From: Natronorubrum tibetense GA33
GTDB lineage: Archaea; Halobacteriota; Halobacteria; Halobacteriales; Natrialbaceae
Direction of reading: 5' to 3'
Assembly: GCF_000383975.1 (NCBI RefSeq)
Contig: NZ_KB913017.1
Span: 1,123,133 to 1,187,132, forward strand
DNA: 64,000 nt
Below, in pieces: positions 6,659-53,479 of this stretch. Under the pieces are notes generated by a model. The model was not told the DNA's origin and ran no database searches. It saw only the letters and a list, made by a program, of their open reading frames with translations. How positions within the stretch are numbered: the stretch's first letter is position 1; each line of letters opens with the position of its first letter. A program made the position numbers and the translations under genes.

Positions 6659-7609
6659 ATGACGACCGATATCACCGAAATCACCGTGATCGGGGACGAC
6701 GACACCGGGCTCATCGCCCGGGTGACGAGCCTCCTGTTCGAGCGCGGAATCAATATCGAGGATCTTGATCAGGCCGTCCGCGACGGCGTCTTCCGCATGT
6801 ATCTCGCCGTCGACACCTCCGAGATGGTCTGTACAGAGGAGACGCTCCGCGAGGACCTCTCCGAACTCGGCGACGACCTCGGTCTCGACGTTCAGGTCCG
6901 GTTCCCAGCCGACCGCGATAGCCAGCAGATCGCCGTCCTGGTCACGAAGGAGAGCCACTGCCTCGAGGCGATGTTCGAGGCGTGGGCCAACGACGAACTC
7001 GGCGCGGACATCGGGGTCGTCATCGGGAACCACGACGACCTCCAGCCGCTGGCCGAACACTACGACGTCCCCTTCCACGACATCGGCGACGAGGGCGGAC
7101 AGCAGAACGAGGACGAACTCCTCGAACTCCTCGCCGAGTACGACGTCGATCTGATCGTCCTCGCGCGGTACATGCGCATCCTCAGCCCCAACGTGGTCTT
7201 TCGCTACGAGGACCGTATTATCAACGTCCACCCGTCGCTACTGCCCGCGTTCCCCGGCGCGGAGGCGTACCGGCAGGCAATCGAGGAGGGCGTCCGCGTG
7301 GCCGGTGTCACTGCTCACTACGTGACCACCGATCTCGATCAGGGACCGGTCATCACCCAGCGCGCGTTCGACGTCCCCGACGACGCCGAGCTAGACGACA
7401 TGAAACACCGGGGCCAGCCCCTCGAGGCGGACGCCCTGCTCGAGGCCGTGAAACTCCACCTGAACGGCGACGTCTCGGTCCACCGCGGCCGGACGTCGGT
7501 CCGGGAGAACGGCGAGGAGTACCAGCTCGGCCTGCCCGACGAAATCGACGAATTCACGCCGGACCGCCCGGTCGACGGGATCGGGAGCGTCGTCGCGAAC
7601 AACCAGTAA
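6659..7609 (+). CDS. purU: Formyltetrahydrofolate deformylase
   Basis: A 316-residue enzyme that hydrolyses 10-formyl-THF to formate and THF, supplying formate or balancing one-carbon units. Residues 1-80 form an ACT domain. The formyltransferase fold follows, with IGNHDDL at 122-128, the substrate loop NVHPSLLPAFPGA at 189-201, His220 in VTAHYV and Asp226 in TDLDQGPV. The C-terminal 30-40 residues are a haloarchaeal extension. I chose ATG 6659 because GGAGGTG (6646-6652) sits at Shine-Dalgarno distance; an in-frame GTG at 6650 overlaps that site. In haloarchaea PurU often works alongside purine synthesis enzymes such as PurC (11997). Confidence 0.93.
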   Translation: MTTDITEITVIGDDDTGLIARVTSLLFERGINIEDLDQAVRDGVFRMYLAVDTSEMVCTEETLREDLSELGDDLGLDVQVRFPADRDSQQIAVLVTKESHCLEAMFEAWANDELGADIGVVIGNHDDLQPLAEHYDVPFHDIGDEGGQQNEDELLELLAEYDVDLIVLARYMRILSPNVVFRYEDRIINVHPSLLPAFPGAEAYRQAIEEGVRVAGVTAHYVTTDLDQGPVITQRAFDVPDDAELDDMKHRGQPLEADALLEAVKLHLNGDVSVHRGRTSVRENGEEYQLGLPDEIDEFTPDRPVDGIGSVVANNQ

Positions 7610-7622
7610 CCGGTCTCTTCGA

Positions 7623-7710
7623 CTAGTACCGTTCCAAACGTCGACTGATGGGGCGAATCGGACCACACCACAGGATTCGCCCCATCAGTTCAGATTTGGA
7701 CCGCCACTAG
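7623..7710. repeat. Long imperfect hairpin, 88 bases
   Basis: An inverted repeat with a perfect inner stem of 15 pairs (ctgatggggcgaatc at 7645-7659 with its complement at 7674-7688) around a 14-base loop. Outer pairing is imperfect, through tccaaa/tttgga out to ctagt/actag at the ends. It lies 13 bases after purU and before the convergent small gene at 7739. It could act as a two-sided terminator, or it could be a miniature inverted-repeat element. Confidence 0.75.
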
Positions 7711-7738
7711 ATTCGACGGGGAAGTTCCCCCACCCTCT

Positions 7739-7921
7739 CTACATCCGTTCGTTGCGGTTGACCGACGACTCCCAACTCTCGAGGCAGTCGTCGCTACAGA
7801 AGTGCTGGTAGACCGTCTCGCCGTTCTCGAGCGTCGTGACGACGCGTTGCTCGGAAGACGATGCTACGGGGTCGCCACACGTTCGGCACTCGGGTGAGTC
7901 CTCGTCCGTCGAATCGGCCAT
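7739..7921 (-). CDS. Small zinc-ribbon protein (DUF7576-like)
   Basis: A 60-residue protein with two cysteine pairs, CRTCG near residue 12 and CSDDC near residue 42, separated by a short beta-rich stretch (RVVTTLENGETVYQHF). This is the pattern of a treble-clef or TRASH/MYM-like zinc finger ending in the ESW segment, and it resembles the haloarchaeal DUF7576 family. I chose ATG 7921 because the frame upstream is basic and unlike a haloarchaeal protein. The role is unknown; such proteins are probably zinc-dependent adaptors. It is flanked on both sides by long hairpins. Confidence 0.65.
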   Translation of the reverse strand: MADSTDEDSPECRTCGDPVASSSEQRVVTTLENGETVYQHFCSDDCLESWESSVNRNERM

Positions 7922-46743: not shown

Positions 46744-47559
46744 ATGGGCATCCTCTCTCGGACCTCCTACGTCATCCGGTCGAAAATCAACTCGGTGCTC
46801 AACCGGGCTGAGGATCCGACGCAGACGCTCGACTACTCCTACGAGCAGATGCGCGACCAGCTCCAGCAGGTCAAACGGGGCATCGCCGACCTCACGACAC
46901 AGAAAAAGCGCCTCGAGATGCAGAAACGCCGTCTCGAGGAGAACGTCGACAAACACAACGATCAGGCCCGGACGGCCGTCCAGCAGGGGCGAGAAGATCT
47001 GGCGCGACGCGCCCTGGAGAAAAAGAAGACGAAGATGAACCAGATCGAGGATCTGGAGCGCCAGATTTCCCAGCTGCAGAGCCAGCAGGACAGCCTGATC
47101 GATCAGAAAGACGAGCTCCAGAACCGCATCGAGGAGTTCCGCACAAAAAAGGAGACGATGAAGGCTCGCCACGAGGCCGCGAAGGCGAGTTCGACCGTTT
47201 CGGAGGCGATGACGGCCACGGGCGAGGAGTTCGAGGACGTCGGCCGCGCCATCGAACGCGCCGAGGAGCAGACCGAGGATATGGAGGCGCGCGCCGCCGC
47301 GCTCGACGAACTCCACGAGTCCGGCGCGTTTGACGACGTGCTCTCGGACAAGGACAACATCGACCGCGAACTCGAGCAGCTCTCAACCGGCAGCGGGGTC
47401 GACGCCGAACTCGAGACGCTCAAATCCGAACTGGGCGAGGGCGAGACGGAGACGTCCGAACCGGCCGCCGACGAGGAGGAACTCGACGACGTCGAGACCG
47501 AGGTCGACAGCGAGGTCGAGGCCGAACTCGCGGAGTTACAGGACGAAGAGAACGCCTGA
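46744..47559 (+). CDS. pspA: PspA/IM30 family membrane-stress protein
   Basis: A 271-residue ESCRT-III-like protein that coats and repairs membranes. The amphipathic N-terminal helix (ILSRTSYVIRSKINSVLNRA) is followed by a long coiled coil: YSYEQMRDQLQQVKRGIADL, KKRLEMQKRRLEENVDKHND, LEKKKTKMNQIEDLERQISQ. A C-terminal helix and an acidic tail close it. It is predicted to be cytoplasmic and membrane-associated, and induced by envelope stress. A TATA-like box precedes it. Confidence 0.9.
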   Translation: MGILSRTSYVIRSKINSVLNRAEDPTQTLDYSYEQMRDQLQQVKRGIADLTTQKKRLEMQKRRLEENVDKHNDQARTAVQQGREDLARRALEKKKTKMNQIEDLERQISQLQSQQDSLIDQKDELQNRIEEFRTKKETMKARHEAAKASSTVSEAMTATGEEFEDVGRAIERAEEQTEDMEARAAALDELHESGAFDDVLSDKDNIDRELEQLSTGSGVDAELETLKSELGEGETETSEPAADEEELDDVETEVDSEVEAELAELQDEENA

Positions 47560-48090: not shown

Positions 48091-48663
48091 TTACGCTCGC
48101 GCATCTCGCGGTTTGAATCCGAACCACTCGGCGAGCGTCGAAATGACGCGGTCGTGGAGATACCACAAGATAGCGACGGCTATGACGATGATGACGCCAT
48201 CCTCGAGACCGCCCATCAGCCCGAGCGCGACGATCAGCGTCGTCGCACACGCCGCCGCGTGATTCGTCTTCGTCAGCAGCATCGTCGTCGTCGTCAGCAT
48301 CATCGCGAGCGTCGCGCTCGCCGTCAGGTAGACGAGTTCCCACGAGAACGCGATGTTAGGGCGGTCGAAGACCACGTACGCGCTGACTTCGTTGCCGACC
48401 AGCGCGTAGGCGATCAGTCCGCAGACGACGGCGACCGCGTGGCCGCCGATGACGTGGTAGCCGCCCTCCGCCCGCGGCTGCTCGCCCGTCGCCATCAGAT
48501 ACGCCGACGGTCCGAGGCTCGGAAACAGGAACGGTCGGCCGGTGACCAACGTGATCGCGCCGAGCACCGTAAAGTGGAGGAAGACGTTGACCGTGGCGCT
48601 GTATTCGTCTTTCAGGTCGAAATCGGTCTCCGGCTCGTCGACCTCGAGATCGGCGTCGGGCAC
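48091..48663 (-). CDS. HPP family membrane protein
   Basis: A 190-residue integral membrane protein. After an acidic cytoplasmic N-terminus come four to five helices: VNVFLHFTVLGAITLVTGRP, FPSLGPSAYLMATGEQPRAE, GGHAVAVVCGLIAYALVGNE, TLAMMLTTTTMLLTKTNHAA. The SLGPSAY and GHAVA motifs are those of the HPP family, linked to nitrite or anion transport. The start is a GTG at 48663, supported by the acidic N-terminus following it and by no ATG nearby. It is divergent from the cupredoxin gene. Confidence 0.82.
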   Translation of the reverse strand: MPDADLEVDEPETDFDLKDEYSATVNVFLHFTVLGAITLVTGRPFLFPSLGPSAYLMATGEQPRAEGGYHVIGGHAVAVVCGLIAYALVGNEVSAYVVFDRPNIAFSWELVYLTASATLAMMLTTTTMLLTKTNHAAACATTLIVALGLMGGLEDGVIIVIAVAILWYLHDRVISTLAEWFGFKPRDARA

Positions 48664-48784
48664 GGGAGTCGAGAGACACCACGGACGGACAAAAGCGCTC
48701 GCGCTGCAGCTATTTACCCTGATCGGACCGTGGAAACAGCGAACTGCGGAGCGAAAGGCGACGCGACGTCCCGTAGTGACCGCG

Positions 48785-49424: not shown

Positions 49425-49928
49425 TTACGTTGGCGTTCCGAGCGCGGTGATATCGTAGTCTGCGAGGTCTTCGGGAGACTCGAGGACAATGACCTGAAAC
49501 TCCCAGGTGACGCCGCCGTCCAGGTCGCCGGTCGACGAGAGGTAGCGCCCGATCTGCTCGCCGTCGTCGTTGTAGACGCGGACGCGGACCTCGGTGAGTT
49601 CGATCCGATCGTCGCCCGTGTTCTCGACGGTTCCCTGCACGGTCGAGCCGCGGTAGTCGTCCTCGAAGACGAACTCGTGGTCGGTGAGTGCGACCTCCTC
49701 GAGCGGTGTGACGCCCTCGTCGATCTCCTGTTCGGCGAGCGCCTCGGCGGCGACCTGTTCGTCCTCCGTTCGCGGTTCGCCGTCGATATCGCCGATCTCG
49801 CCCGTTTCGTACTCCGGATCGCCGCCGATTCCGGGACCGCCGTCGCCGGTGCAGCCGGCGAGTGCGGCTGCGGAGCCGACGCCGAGTGCGGCGAGCACGC
49901 GCCGACGGCTCGGTGTCGATTTCGTCAT
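49425..49928 (-). CDS. FxLYD-type exported lipoprotein
   Basis: A 167-residue lipoprotein. The signal TKSTPSRRRVLAALGVGSAA carries a Tat RRR motif and ends at the lipobox cysteine (ALAGC). The mature domain is a beta sandwich with the usual arrangement of the FxLYD family: VALTDHEFVFEDDYRGSTVQ, GTVENTGDDRIELTEVRVRV, YNDDGEQIGRYLSSTGDLDG. It is predicted to sit outside the membrane. It faces the cupredoxin gene tail-to-tail. Function unknown. Confidence 0.8.
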   Translation of the reverse strand: MTKSTPSRRRVLAALGVGSAAALAGCTGDGGPGIGGDPEYETGEIGDIDGEPRTEDEQVAAEALAEQEIDEGVTPLEEVALTDHEFVFEDDYRGSTVQGTVENTGDDRIELTEVRVRVYNDDGEQIGRYLSSTGDLDGGVTWEFQVIVLESPEDLADYDITALGTPT

Positions 49929-50147
49929 CGATACCGACCTCGCGCCAAGAGCGCCGAACGTACTCGCCGGCGGTTTGCGTAACTGAGCATGGTGATATCG
50001 TCCGCCTGAACGCATTTGAGTGTAGGCCCTGAAGGGGCAGCGTCGCGGCAGCCAAAAGCAGTCCGAACGCATCAGAGTGCGCGGAGACGCGCGGAATCAG
50101 TATGTGCAACGCAGCCGCTTATTGTCGCCTCGGCTGTCGATGCGGAT

Positions 50148-51191
50148 ATGGGGTCTTCCGAGACGGACGAGACGCTCGAGTCCTACGGTACCGAGATCGG
50201 AAAGCGAACGAACTCGGTAACTCGCGTTCGAGAATGGGTACTGGTCGAAGGGGACCGGTTGTTCATCGCTTCGCTCGTCTCAGTCGCCGTTTTCTTGCTG
50301 TTTCTCTCCATGAACGAGATCGGAATCATCTCGTTTGCCAACGACGACTCGATCACCCGGCTCGCGGGCGGGATGATCGCCGGCACCTTCTCGCTGGTCA
50401 CGCTGGTCGTCTCGATCAACCAGCTGATCCTCTCTCAGGAGTTCGCCTCCGCCGGCGACGCGCGCGAGCAACTCGAGAGCGTGATGAGCTTCCGCGAAGA
50501 CGTCTCCGAGACGACGGACGTCGCGGCGAGTCCGGCCTCGCCGTCCCGGCTGCTCGAGTTGCTTGTCGAGACGATCAACGAGCAGGCCGTTGCCCTCGAC
50601 GACGCCGTCTCGGAGTACGACGACGCGGAGGTCAGAGAGCTGATCGGGCGCTACACGAACAGCATCGAGGAGAGCACCGACCGGGTCGACGACACCTTAG
50701 AGCACACGCAGTTCGGCACGTTCAAGGCAGTTTCCGCGGCGGTAGGCTACGACGCCGCCTGGCAGCTTTACGTCGCGAGGAACCTCCGCGGGCGCTACGG
50801 TGAGTCACTCCCCGACGACGCGGTCGACGCGCTGGACGACCTGATCGGGACGCTGGAGCTGTTTAACACGACTCGCGAACACTTCAAGACGACTTACCTG
50901 CAGAAGGAGCTCACCCGGTTCTCGCAACTGACGATCTACTGCGGCGTGCCGGCGATTCTGGGGGCGATGACGCTCGGCTTCGTCTACGCGGATCTCACCG
51001 GGCCGACGATCAGCGCGGTCTACCTTCCCTTCGTCGCCAGCGCACTCATCGCGGTCGTCATCTCTCCGCTCGCCCTGCTGGTCGCGTTCATCCTCCGAAC
51101 GGCGACCGTCACCCGGCGGACGGCATCCGTCGGGCCGATGTTACCGCAGAAAGATCCCGACGCCGGGCCGTTCGACGTGACCGACGACTGA
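50148..51191 (+). CDS. Membrane protein of a triplicated family, copy 1
   Basis: A 347-residue protein with two N-terminal helices (LFIASLVSVAVFLLFLSMNE; GGMIAGTFSLVTLVVSINQL), a hydrophilic middle of about 170 residues, and two C-terminal helices. Its signature segments are SINQLILSQEFASAGDAREQ, LEHTQFGTFKAVSAAVGYDA, TREHFKTTYLQKELTRFSQL and FILRTATVTRRTASVGPM. The same segments recur in the next two genes, so this is a tandem paralogue family. I do not recognise a known family. ATG 50148 begins the acidic N-terminus. Confidence 0.82.
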   Translation: MGSSETDETLESYGTEIGKRTNSVTRVREWVLVEGDRLFIASLVSVAVFLLFLSMNEIGIISFANDDSITRLAGGMIAGTFSLVTLVVSINQLILSQEFASAGDAREQLESVMSFREDVSETTDVAASPASPSRLLELLVETINEQAVALDDAVSEYDDAEVRELIGRYTNSIEESTDRVDDTLEHTQFGTFKAVSAAVGYDAAWQLYVARNLRGRYGESLPDDAVDALDDLIGTLELFNTTREHFKTTYLQKELTRFSQLTIYCGVPAILGAMTLGFVYADLTGPTISAVYLPFVASALIAVVISPLALLVAFILRTATVTRRTASVGPMLPQKDPDAGPFDVTDD

Positions 51192-51315
51192 TCGGCGCGG
51201 CGAGTAGTTACTCTCACTGGACGAACCCCGTCGTGTTATCGTGGGAACACGCCCCAGTGCCGTCGCCTCCCGGGCCGGGTATTTTGACCACCACGGCCGT
51301 CCGTTCGAACAGTCG

Positions 51316-52341
51316 ATGAGCGACGCTGACTCGAGCGACGACTCCGGCGGGCAGGAGAGACTGGGCGGGACCCGGCTGTGGATCCTGCTGCAGTTGAACC
51401 GGTGGGCGTTCACCGTCGCGATCCTCCTGGTCGTGTACGTCGTGCTCGTCGCCGCCAGCCTGCTCGATCTCACGCCGTTGCGAACCATCGTCGAGAATCA
51501 AGACGGGATCGAGTTCCTCTTTTCGGCCTTCATCGGAGCGATTATTACGGGTACCTCGATCGTCGTCACGATCAATCAACTCGTGCTCTCACAGGAACTC
51601 GGTGCGATCGGCGATCAGCGCGAGCGCATGAGCGAAGCGATGGACTTCCGACAGACCGTCGAGGACACGATTTCCGAGGACGCGAGTCCCCCCGAACCCG
51701 GTGCGTTCCTGTTCGAACTCGTCGACGGCGTCTCCGAGCGGGCGAGGGAACTCGAGGAAGTCATGGAAGACGAACGCGACGACGAGCTCCGGAAGAAGAT
51801 CGCCGACTACGTCGACGACGCGACGGAAAACGCCGAGAACGTCAAAGGTGACCTCGAGAACGCCCAGTTCGGGACGTTTCAGGTTATCTGGAACGCGCTC
51901 AGCTTCAACTACTCGCGGAAGATCTACGACGCGCGCAAGATCCGCGACGATCACGCGGACTCGCTCTCGGACGAGGCGAACGAGAAGATCGACCACATGA
52001 TTGACACGCTGAAACTGTTCGGGCCGGCCCGCGAGCACTTCAAAACGCTGTACTTCCAGTGGGAGTTGATCAACCTCTCGCGGGCACTGCTCTACATCGC
52101 GGTGCCCGCGCTGACGATCATGGGGATCATGATCATGTACGTCGACGGGAACACGCTGCTGGGGTCGACGCTCGGCGTCGACAACCTCGTCTGGATAACC
52201 AGCGCCGGCTTCGTCGTCGGCATCTCGCCGTTCGTCGTCTTCATCACGTACATTCTCCGGATCGCTACCGTCGCGAAGCGAACCCTCGCGATGGGTCCGT
52301 TCATCCTCCGGGAGTCTGAACGGGACGAGGATCTCGGCTGA
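51316..52341 (+). CDS. Membrane protein of a triplicated family, copy 2
   Basis: A 341-residue paralogue of copies 1 and 3. The shared segments are FIGAIITGTSIVVTINQLVL, SQELGAIGDQRERMSEAMDF, ENAQFGTFQVIWNALSFNYS, AREHFKTLYFQWELINLSRA and YILRIATVAKRTLAMGPFIL. Two plus two helices flank a helical cytoplasmic-like middle. It starts 125 bases after copy 1. It is closer to copy 3 than to copy 1, judged by FKTLYFQWELINLSRA being shared exactly. The function may involve signal sensing or channel formation, but nothing proves this. Confidence 0.82.
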   Translation: MSDADSSDDSGGQERLGGTRLWILLQLNRWAFTVAILLVVYVVLVAASLLDLTPLRTIVENQDGIEFLFSAFIGAIITGTSIVVTINQLVLSQELGAIGDQRERMSEAMDFRQTVEDTISEDASPPEPGAFLFELVDGVSERARELEEVMEDERDDELRKKIADYVDDATENAENVKGDLENAQFGTFQVIWNALSFNYSRKIYDARKIRDDHADSLSDEANEKIDHMIDTLKLFGPAREHFKTLYFQWELINLSRALLYIAVPALTIMGIMIMYVDGNTLLGSTLGVDNLVWITSAGFVVGISPFVVFITYILRIATVAKRTLAMGPFILRESERDEDLG

Positions 52342-52435
52342 TTCCCGTCTCCGGAGAATCGTTCCGGACAGGCTCCCGTCGCTGACTGCAGTTTCTCCGT
52401 AGCTATTTCCGCCACATCGTGGTATCCCGCGAGCG

Positions 52436-53479
52436 ATGAGCGGCGACGGCTCACAGCCGAGCGACACGATGGCCGAGCGAAGTGCGGATCCAACCTGGAA
52501 GCACCAGCTTCTGCTGAACGCGAACCGGTGGCTCGTCACGGCCGGATTGATGGCCTTCGTCTTCGTCGGCCTGCTCGTCGTCGGGGAACTGAGTCCAATC
52601 TCGCTGCGGGCGCTAATGGGCGAGAAAGAGCCCGTTCTCACGCTCTTTCAGGCCCTCGTCACCGCCCTGATCACCGGCGTCACGCTGGTCGTCACCATCA
52701 ACTCGCTGGTGCTCTCCCAGGAGTTGGGGGCCGTCGAAGACCAGCGCGGCCGTCTCGATGGAGCCCTCGAGTTCCGCGAGGACGTCGAGAGCTCGATCGA
52801 CGCGCCGATCAGTCCGCCGGAGCCCGCGTCGTTCGTCCAGGCGATCATCGCCGCCTCCGACGAGCGCGCACGAGAGTTTCGGGAGGCCGTCTCCGACAGC
52901 CGGGACGACGAACTCATCGAGCGCGTCGACGACTTCGTCGACAACCTGACGACTCACGCCGACTCGATCCGGGACGACCTCGAGGGCGCCCAGTTCGGCA
53001 CCTACGACGTCGTCAAGGCCGCACTGGACTACAACTACTCCTGGAAAATTTTCAGAGCGCGGCGGATCAAAAACGCCCACGCCGATTCCTTCGACGACGA
53101 AGCCGAAGCAGCCTACGACGAACTGCTCGAGTCGCTGAAGCTGTTCGGCCTCGCCCGGGAGCACTTCAAGACGCTGTACTTTCAGTGGGAGCTGATCAAC
53201 CTCTCGCGGGCGATGATGTACGTCGCCGTCCCCGCGCTGGTCGTAGCCATGTCGATGCTACTCTTTTTCCACGCGGACGCCGTGAGCGGGACCGTCCTCG
53301 GCATCGACGCCATCGTCTGGGTCGTCGTCGCCACTTCGACCATCGCCGTCACACCGTTCCTCCTGTTGATCGCCTTCATCCTGCGAATCGCGACGATGGC
53401 CAAACGGACGCTCGCGATCGGTCCCTTTATTGTGCGGGACTCGAGCCGCGGCGAGGAAATCGACTGGGAGTCGGAGTAA
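52436..53479 (+). CDS. Membrane protein of a triplicated family, copy 3
   Basis: A 347-residue paralogue with the family segments LVVTINSLVLSQELGAVEDQ, LEGAQFGTYDVVKAALDYNY, AREHFKTLYFQWELINLSRA and FILRIATMAKRTLAIGPFIV. As in the other copies, a short acidic N-terminus precedes a hydrophobic pair, then a long helical part, then a second hydrophobic pair. The gap from copy 2 is 94 bases. All three probably belong to one transcription unit or have been amplified together. Function unknown. Confidence 0.82.
   Translation: MSGDGSQPSDTMAERSADPTWKHQLLLNANRWLVTAGLMAFVFVGLLVVGELSPISLRALMGEKEPVLTLFQALVTALITGVTLVVTINSLVLSQELGAVEDQRGRLDGALEFREDVESSIDAPISPPEPASFVQAIIAASDERAREFREAVSDSRDDELIERVDDFVDNLTTHADSIRDDLEGAQFGTYDVVKAALDYNYSWKIFRARRIKNAHADSFDDEAEAAYDELLESLKLFGLAREHFKTLYFQWELINLSRAMMYVAVPALVVAMSMLLFFHADAVSGTVLGIDAIVWVVVATSTIAVTPFLLLIAFILRIATMAKRTLAIGPFIVRDSSRGEEIDWESE

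Follow-up and report, generated by a model that had tools for sequence, protein, structure and literature searches.

Three tandem genes in the genome of Natronorubrum tibetense GA33 belong to an undescribed haloarchaeal family of membrane proteins with four transmembrane (TM) segments, and this family is nearly universal in haloarchaea. Many of its members lie downstream of pspA, often adjacent to it, and a second clade is coupled to small DUF4177 genes. We tentatively propose that the family is the membrane-bound part of a haloarchaeal envelope-stress apparatus, with a cytoplasmic domain that would recruit or control a soluble partner, either PspA or a DUF4177 protein. Little has been established about the detection and repair of membrane damage in haloarchaea. 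PspA is widespread and salt-induced in haloarchaea, its level rising under salinity stress in Haloferax volcanii, and most of the membrane partners known from bacteria are missing there (PMC9239133). The family described here offers a concrete candidate for this missing partner, and one that is nearly universal. Features are listed in Table 1 by their position in the window, the whole stretch of 64,000 nucleotides that was analyzed.

Table 1. Genes and promoter-region elements in the window.
Feature	Position	Strand	Remarks
pspA (PspA_IM30, PF04012, E 2.1e-34)	46744..47559	+	often found upstream of family members
HPP-type membrane protein gene (PF04982)	48091..48696		
Lipoprotein-like short gene	49425..49898	-	points away from copy 1; kept as a neighbour at 38 loci, almost all of them in Natrialbaceae
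TGTGCAACGC box (candidate)	50103..50112	+	about 45 bp upstream of copy 1; core TGCAACGC in 21/35 orthologues, mostly at -42/-43
TATA-like element TTATTGTC	50119..50126	+	-29 of copy 1; TTAT[T/C] there in 32/35 orthologues, 5% in shuffled upstream regions
Copy 1 (P0001, 347 aa)	50148..51191	+	divergent subfamily: Natrialbaceae, Halalkalicoccus-like genomes, few others
TATA-like element TATTTT	51280..51285	+	-36 of copy 2; 12/24 orthologues, 0.6% shuffled
Copy 2 (P0002, 341 aa)	51316..52341	+	core type
TATA-like element CTATTTCC	52403..52410	+	-33 of copy 3; 9/18 orthologues (-33 to -38), 0.2% shuffled
Copy 3 (P0003, 347 aa)	52436..53479	+	core type
Small acidic protein, 94 aa	53548..53832	+	not part of the unit

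Three intact copies of an undescribed family

All three open reading frames are intact, and in pairwise comparison their products align along the whole length. Identity is 46% between copies 2 and 3, compared to 33% between copies 1 and 2 and 31% between copies 1 and 3. Each protein has four hydrophobic segments around a middle of roughly 170 residues, and the segments REHFKT.Y..EL...S and LR.AT...RT...GP are both present in all three. The preliminary description, which had proposed three paralogues with a common layout, shared signature segments and a closer relationship of copies 2 and 3, is thereby confirmed on these points. Comparison with orthologues from Natronorubrum texcoconense, N. 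halalkaliphilum and Natronolimnohabitans gave dN/dS values of 0.07–0.23 per copy, a pattern of purifying selection that shows all three copies to be retained as functional proteins. A search with a profile built from the three proteins detected relatives in 173 of the 195 genomes of the order and five copies in the genome of the window (the three tandem genes and two more). Together with the dN/dS values, this spread argues that the three genes are not a chance occurrence.

The record nearest to copy 1 comes from N. texcoconense (96%). In that species and its relatives, a gene for a 188-aa membrane protein lies on the opposite strand between copies 1 and 2 (L035, about 7042-7915); the corresponding gap in the window is 124 bp and lacks this gene.

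No Pfam or NCBIfam model matched P0001–P0003 or 68 diverse members, and no PDB sequence matched the three proteins, so the earlier view that they belong to no described family stands. Searches for a known family in Pfam, NCBIfam, PADLOC, PHROGs and PDB sequences returned only sub-threshold matches scattered over unrelated families. All three copies match the 68-row family profile, which includes them, with E-values of 7e-142 to 5e-150. In a phylum-wide sample, full-length matches outside the order were confined to one genome (G212), and one other genome gave a marginal match over 46 positions (E 9e-4). Haloarchaeal plasmids often carry members, annotated there as hypothetical proteins; the bacterial coverage of the search was a plasmid collection. 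No relatives were found in phage records or viral contigs, and a viral origin was rejected on this basis.

Predicted topology and comparison with known folds

Hydropathy over the 68 sequences indicates four TM segments, at about residues 31-51, 73-84, 263-275 and 292-312 of P0002. The stretch after TM4 carries 2.8 K+R versus 0.03 D+E per sequence, and the TM1–TM2 and TM3–TM4 loops are acidic with few basic residues, suggesting that the N-terminal, middle and C-terminal parts are inside the cell. An AlphaFold2 model of P0002, built with 88 relatives, is confident and all-helical (pLDDT 83.2, pTM 0.77), with long helices extending out of TM2 and into TM3. The predicted layout is thus a TM hairpin, an all-helical cytoplasmic domain (about 170 residues) and a second TM hairpin, with both termini inside. 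Hydropathy, charge balance and the structural model, which are all predictions, fit this layout. The strongly conserved positions R29, Q88, S92, E94, R112, R239, E240, K243, T244, Y246, R315, R322, T323, G327 and P328 fall on the predicted cytoplasmic side; the basic residues among them (R29, R112, R239, K243, R315 and R322) are 91–100% conserved and flank the TM segments. Two prolines, P264 in TM3 and P305 in TM4, are also conserved.

The preliminary description had suggested a hetero-oligomeric channel. It is unlikely, in our judgement, that the proteins form a (hetero-)oligomeric ion channel or osmotic valve gated by soluble partners. Such a channel would account for the four TM segments and the long helices running between TM2/TM3 and the cytoplasmic domain, for the two conserved prolines and the conserved basic residues, and for the occurrence of solitary and plasmid-borne members close to genes for transporters, universal stress proteins and MscS-like proteins. 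However, no channel family was matched. Bestrophins (PF01062) have four TM helices with cytoplasmic helices between the hairpins, and the family is alike in outline, but profile and fold comparisons remained at noise level: Foldseek of the monomer model against BEST1 gave TM-scores of 0.19–0.20 (E 0.3–0.6), and the profile-profile (hhalign) score of 16–19 was inside the range of control membrane families. With no Pfam match to PF01062 either, membership of the bestrophin family is not supported. It should also be noted that neither PF01062 nor the bestrophin-like PF14023 gave a match over cut-off in 120 archaeal genomes or in any control genome; since both models are silent in the controls too, their absence from the archaeal genomes shows little.

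A sensor or receptor, whose helical cytoplasmic domain would bind a small anionic ligand or lipid head group and whose proximity to PspA and other genes would be incidental synteny, is similarly improbable. The conserved basic residues would suit such binding, and the middle domain overlaps best, in VIA structural comparison, with four-helix bundles, including the bacterial sensor domains of PilJ, McpS and TorS. However, these overlaps (Z up to 11.8) are within the chance level for helical bundles, and the proteins have no attached signalling domain. Tweety homologues (TTYH; Z 11.8 over 115 residues, rmsd 2.6) fell inside the same helical-bundle background. Foldseek with the AlphaFold2 model found nothing below E 0.001, and a missing fold match is not evidence for a new fold.

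In profile-profile comparison the N-terminal TM hairpin weakly resembles that of DUF2254 (PF10011; L114 and others). The similar stretch covers residues 16-87 of P0002 (about 51361-51576 in the window) and scored 33–37 in hhalign, whereas the eleven control membrane families reached no more than 26; at a probability of 13–28% this is not significant. The four TM helices of DUF2254 itself are consecutive and its C-terminal part is long, unlike the layout of the family described here, and no Pfam match to PF10011 was found over the domain. We therefore treat this possible resemblance as a lead only.

Core members are linked to pspA

PspA/IM30 is a relative of ESCRT-III and a membrane-repair protein. 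Its gene is a recurrent neighbour of the family, both in whole genomes and among 78 loci taken from named genomes. At least 28 of the 48 genomes with both genes place a member no more than 5 kb from pspA, compared to 0.45 expected by chance, a comparison that still contains shared locus ancestry. By the classification codes used, the linked genomes span seven families, and the member is always on the downstream side of pspA. In Haladaptatus, Halarchaeum, Halorientalis, Haloprofundus, Halegenticoccus and Halospeciosus the two genes adjoin and are co-oriented, with the matched domains 64–225 bp apart. In Haloarcula they are convergent and 1–3 kb apart, and several other genera, Halorubrum among them, show no linkage. 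In nine sampled genomes pspA occurs without any family member. Within the window, 2.6 kb separates pspA from copy 1, and this interval holds a winged-helix gene, the HPP-type membrane protein gene and the lipoprotein-like gene.

A hydrolase gene beside pspA is about equally well conserved as the family member, and an ancestral block of GuaA-PyrG-hydrolase-PspA-member-ThrS is visible. The adjacency to pspA could be inherited synteny, and because the block includes the hydrolase, ThrS and others, linkage alone is no proof of joint function.

A gene at the corresponding position has been noted in the literature. In Haloferax volcanii, a transmembrane protein, Hvo2637, is encoded 3' of pspA and is mentioned without further work (Popp et al. 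2022, PMC9239133). The likeness to core members is one of gene position: that study mentions the protein in a single passage and for a single genome, gives uncertain bPH_4/EphA2_TM assignments, and describes no family, topology, copy number or link to DUF4177. The bacterial Psp/Lia partners PspB, PspC and LiaI-LiaF-TM, as presented in the accessible text of a large Psp survey, are also PspA-linked membrane proteins and are thought to sense stress or tether PspA; that text gives these and other partners and names no such haloarchaeal protein (PMC11237479). The family described here differs in having a cytoplasmic helical domain between two TM hairpins and in being confined so far to haloarchaea. 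PspB, PspC and LiaI-LiaF-TM were absent among Pfam and NCBIfam matches up to E 10 for P0001–P0003 and up to E 0.1 for the 68 members.

A second clade overlaps DUF4177 genes

Members distant from pspA are often preceded by a DUF4177 gene with a product of about 60–80 aa. In 69 genomes, 49 DUF4177 genes were found; 39 of them have a member no more than 400 bp away, and 37, from 25 genomes, are directly upstream of one and co-oriented. When the start codon nearest to the DUF4177 stop is taken, the genes overlap in 44 of 47 pairs, by 4 bp (29 pairs), 8 bp (13) or 11 bp (2). Essentially all coupled members fall into a single clade (SH-aLRT 99), in which 14 of the 16 rows are coupled. Both further members in the genome of the window are of this type (L144 4007-5210 and L172 4007-5193; about 1378-1379 kb and 2684.7-2685.9 kb on C1), each with an overlapping or touching DUF4177 gene upstream, a gene pair that is met again across haloarchaea.

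As a rule, gene overlap of this kind points to coupled translation, and in many cases to a shared complex. It is therefore the strongest hint that the family works with a soluble partner, and the gene pair is a second directly testable complex and a functional lead for DUF4177. The DUF4177 model itself is weak (pLDDT 66.5), and its fold matches are not interpretable. The tight overlap of 4–11 bp, pointing to a specific partner in this clade, also counts against the quite improbable reading that the proteins are lipid- or membrane-organising structural proteins with no specific soluble partner, a reading that would agree with the pspA locus association, the multiple and plasmid-borne copies and the lack of a recognised catalytic signature.

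Proximity to pspA, or an overlapping gene pair with a tiny partner, suggests that the family is probably the membrane part of a stress machinery. In the role that we tentatively propose, the soluble partner would be recruited or controlled through the cytoplasmic domain together with its conserved basic residues at the membrane face. For core members, copies 2 and 3 included, this partner would probably be PspA/IM30; for the second clade, including the two further copies in this genome, it would be the DUF4177 protein encoded by the overlapping upstream gene. The analysis shows the family itself, its topology signals and residue conservation, the linkage and overlap of genes, and a separate promoter-like element for each copy; from these we infer a physical interaction with PspA or DUF4177, a function in stress and assembly into oligomers. 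A bolder version, which we consider rather doubtful, holds that the proteins are haloarchaea-specific receptors for the ESCRT-III-like PspA, that a second lineage swapped PspA for DUF4177, and that the system combines interchangeable soluble effectors with lineage-specific arrays of one to five paralogues.

Copy number, promoters and neighbours of the array

Copies 2 and 3 belong to a core clade together with the single genes adjacent to pspA, and copy 1 to a separate clade found mainly in Natrialbaceae and Halalkalicoccus-like genomes. Outside these two groups, a single copy near pspA is usual. Halalkalicoccus-type genomes have 3–5 members in mixed orientation. Among Natrialbaceae loci with a copy-1-type gene, 34 of 39 contain one or more further members at a distance of up to about 6 kb, which favours a joint role of the copies, and 12 of 39 have three or more.

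The TATA-like elements differ between the copies and each is conserved at a nearly fixed distance from its gene, suggesting that the three copies are probably transcribed separately. A single simple operon of three genes is disfavoured by the same observation. The triplet is one of several arrangements: the number of members near pspA ranges from one to five. With this range, and with a promoter-like element for each copy, our data do not support a three-gene unit as the essence of the system. The Natrialbaceae copies near pspA are probably diversified duplicates, which could serve different conditions or mix in one oligomer.

The small acidic protein encoded downstream of copy 3, which had been suggested as a further part of the unit, does not belong to it. 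Homologues are present in 58 of 69 genomes, nearly all unlinked to the family, and the closest (mostly 60–80% identity) are located elsewhere in other genomes. This protein has no Pfam match.

The TGTGCAACGC box upstream of copy 1 is a candidate regulator site, judging from the conservation of its core among orthologues. As a box defining a regulon it was rejected: the window has one exact site, a count not above chance. The lipoprotein-like gene, which has no Pfam match, shares the copy-1 promoter region. The HPP-type membrane protein gene is a repeated companion of the family, present close to members at 28 loci and also on a plasmid.
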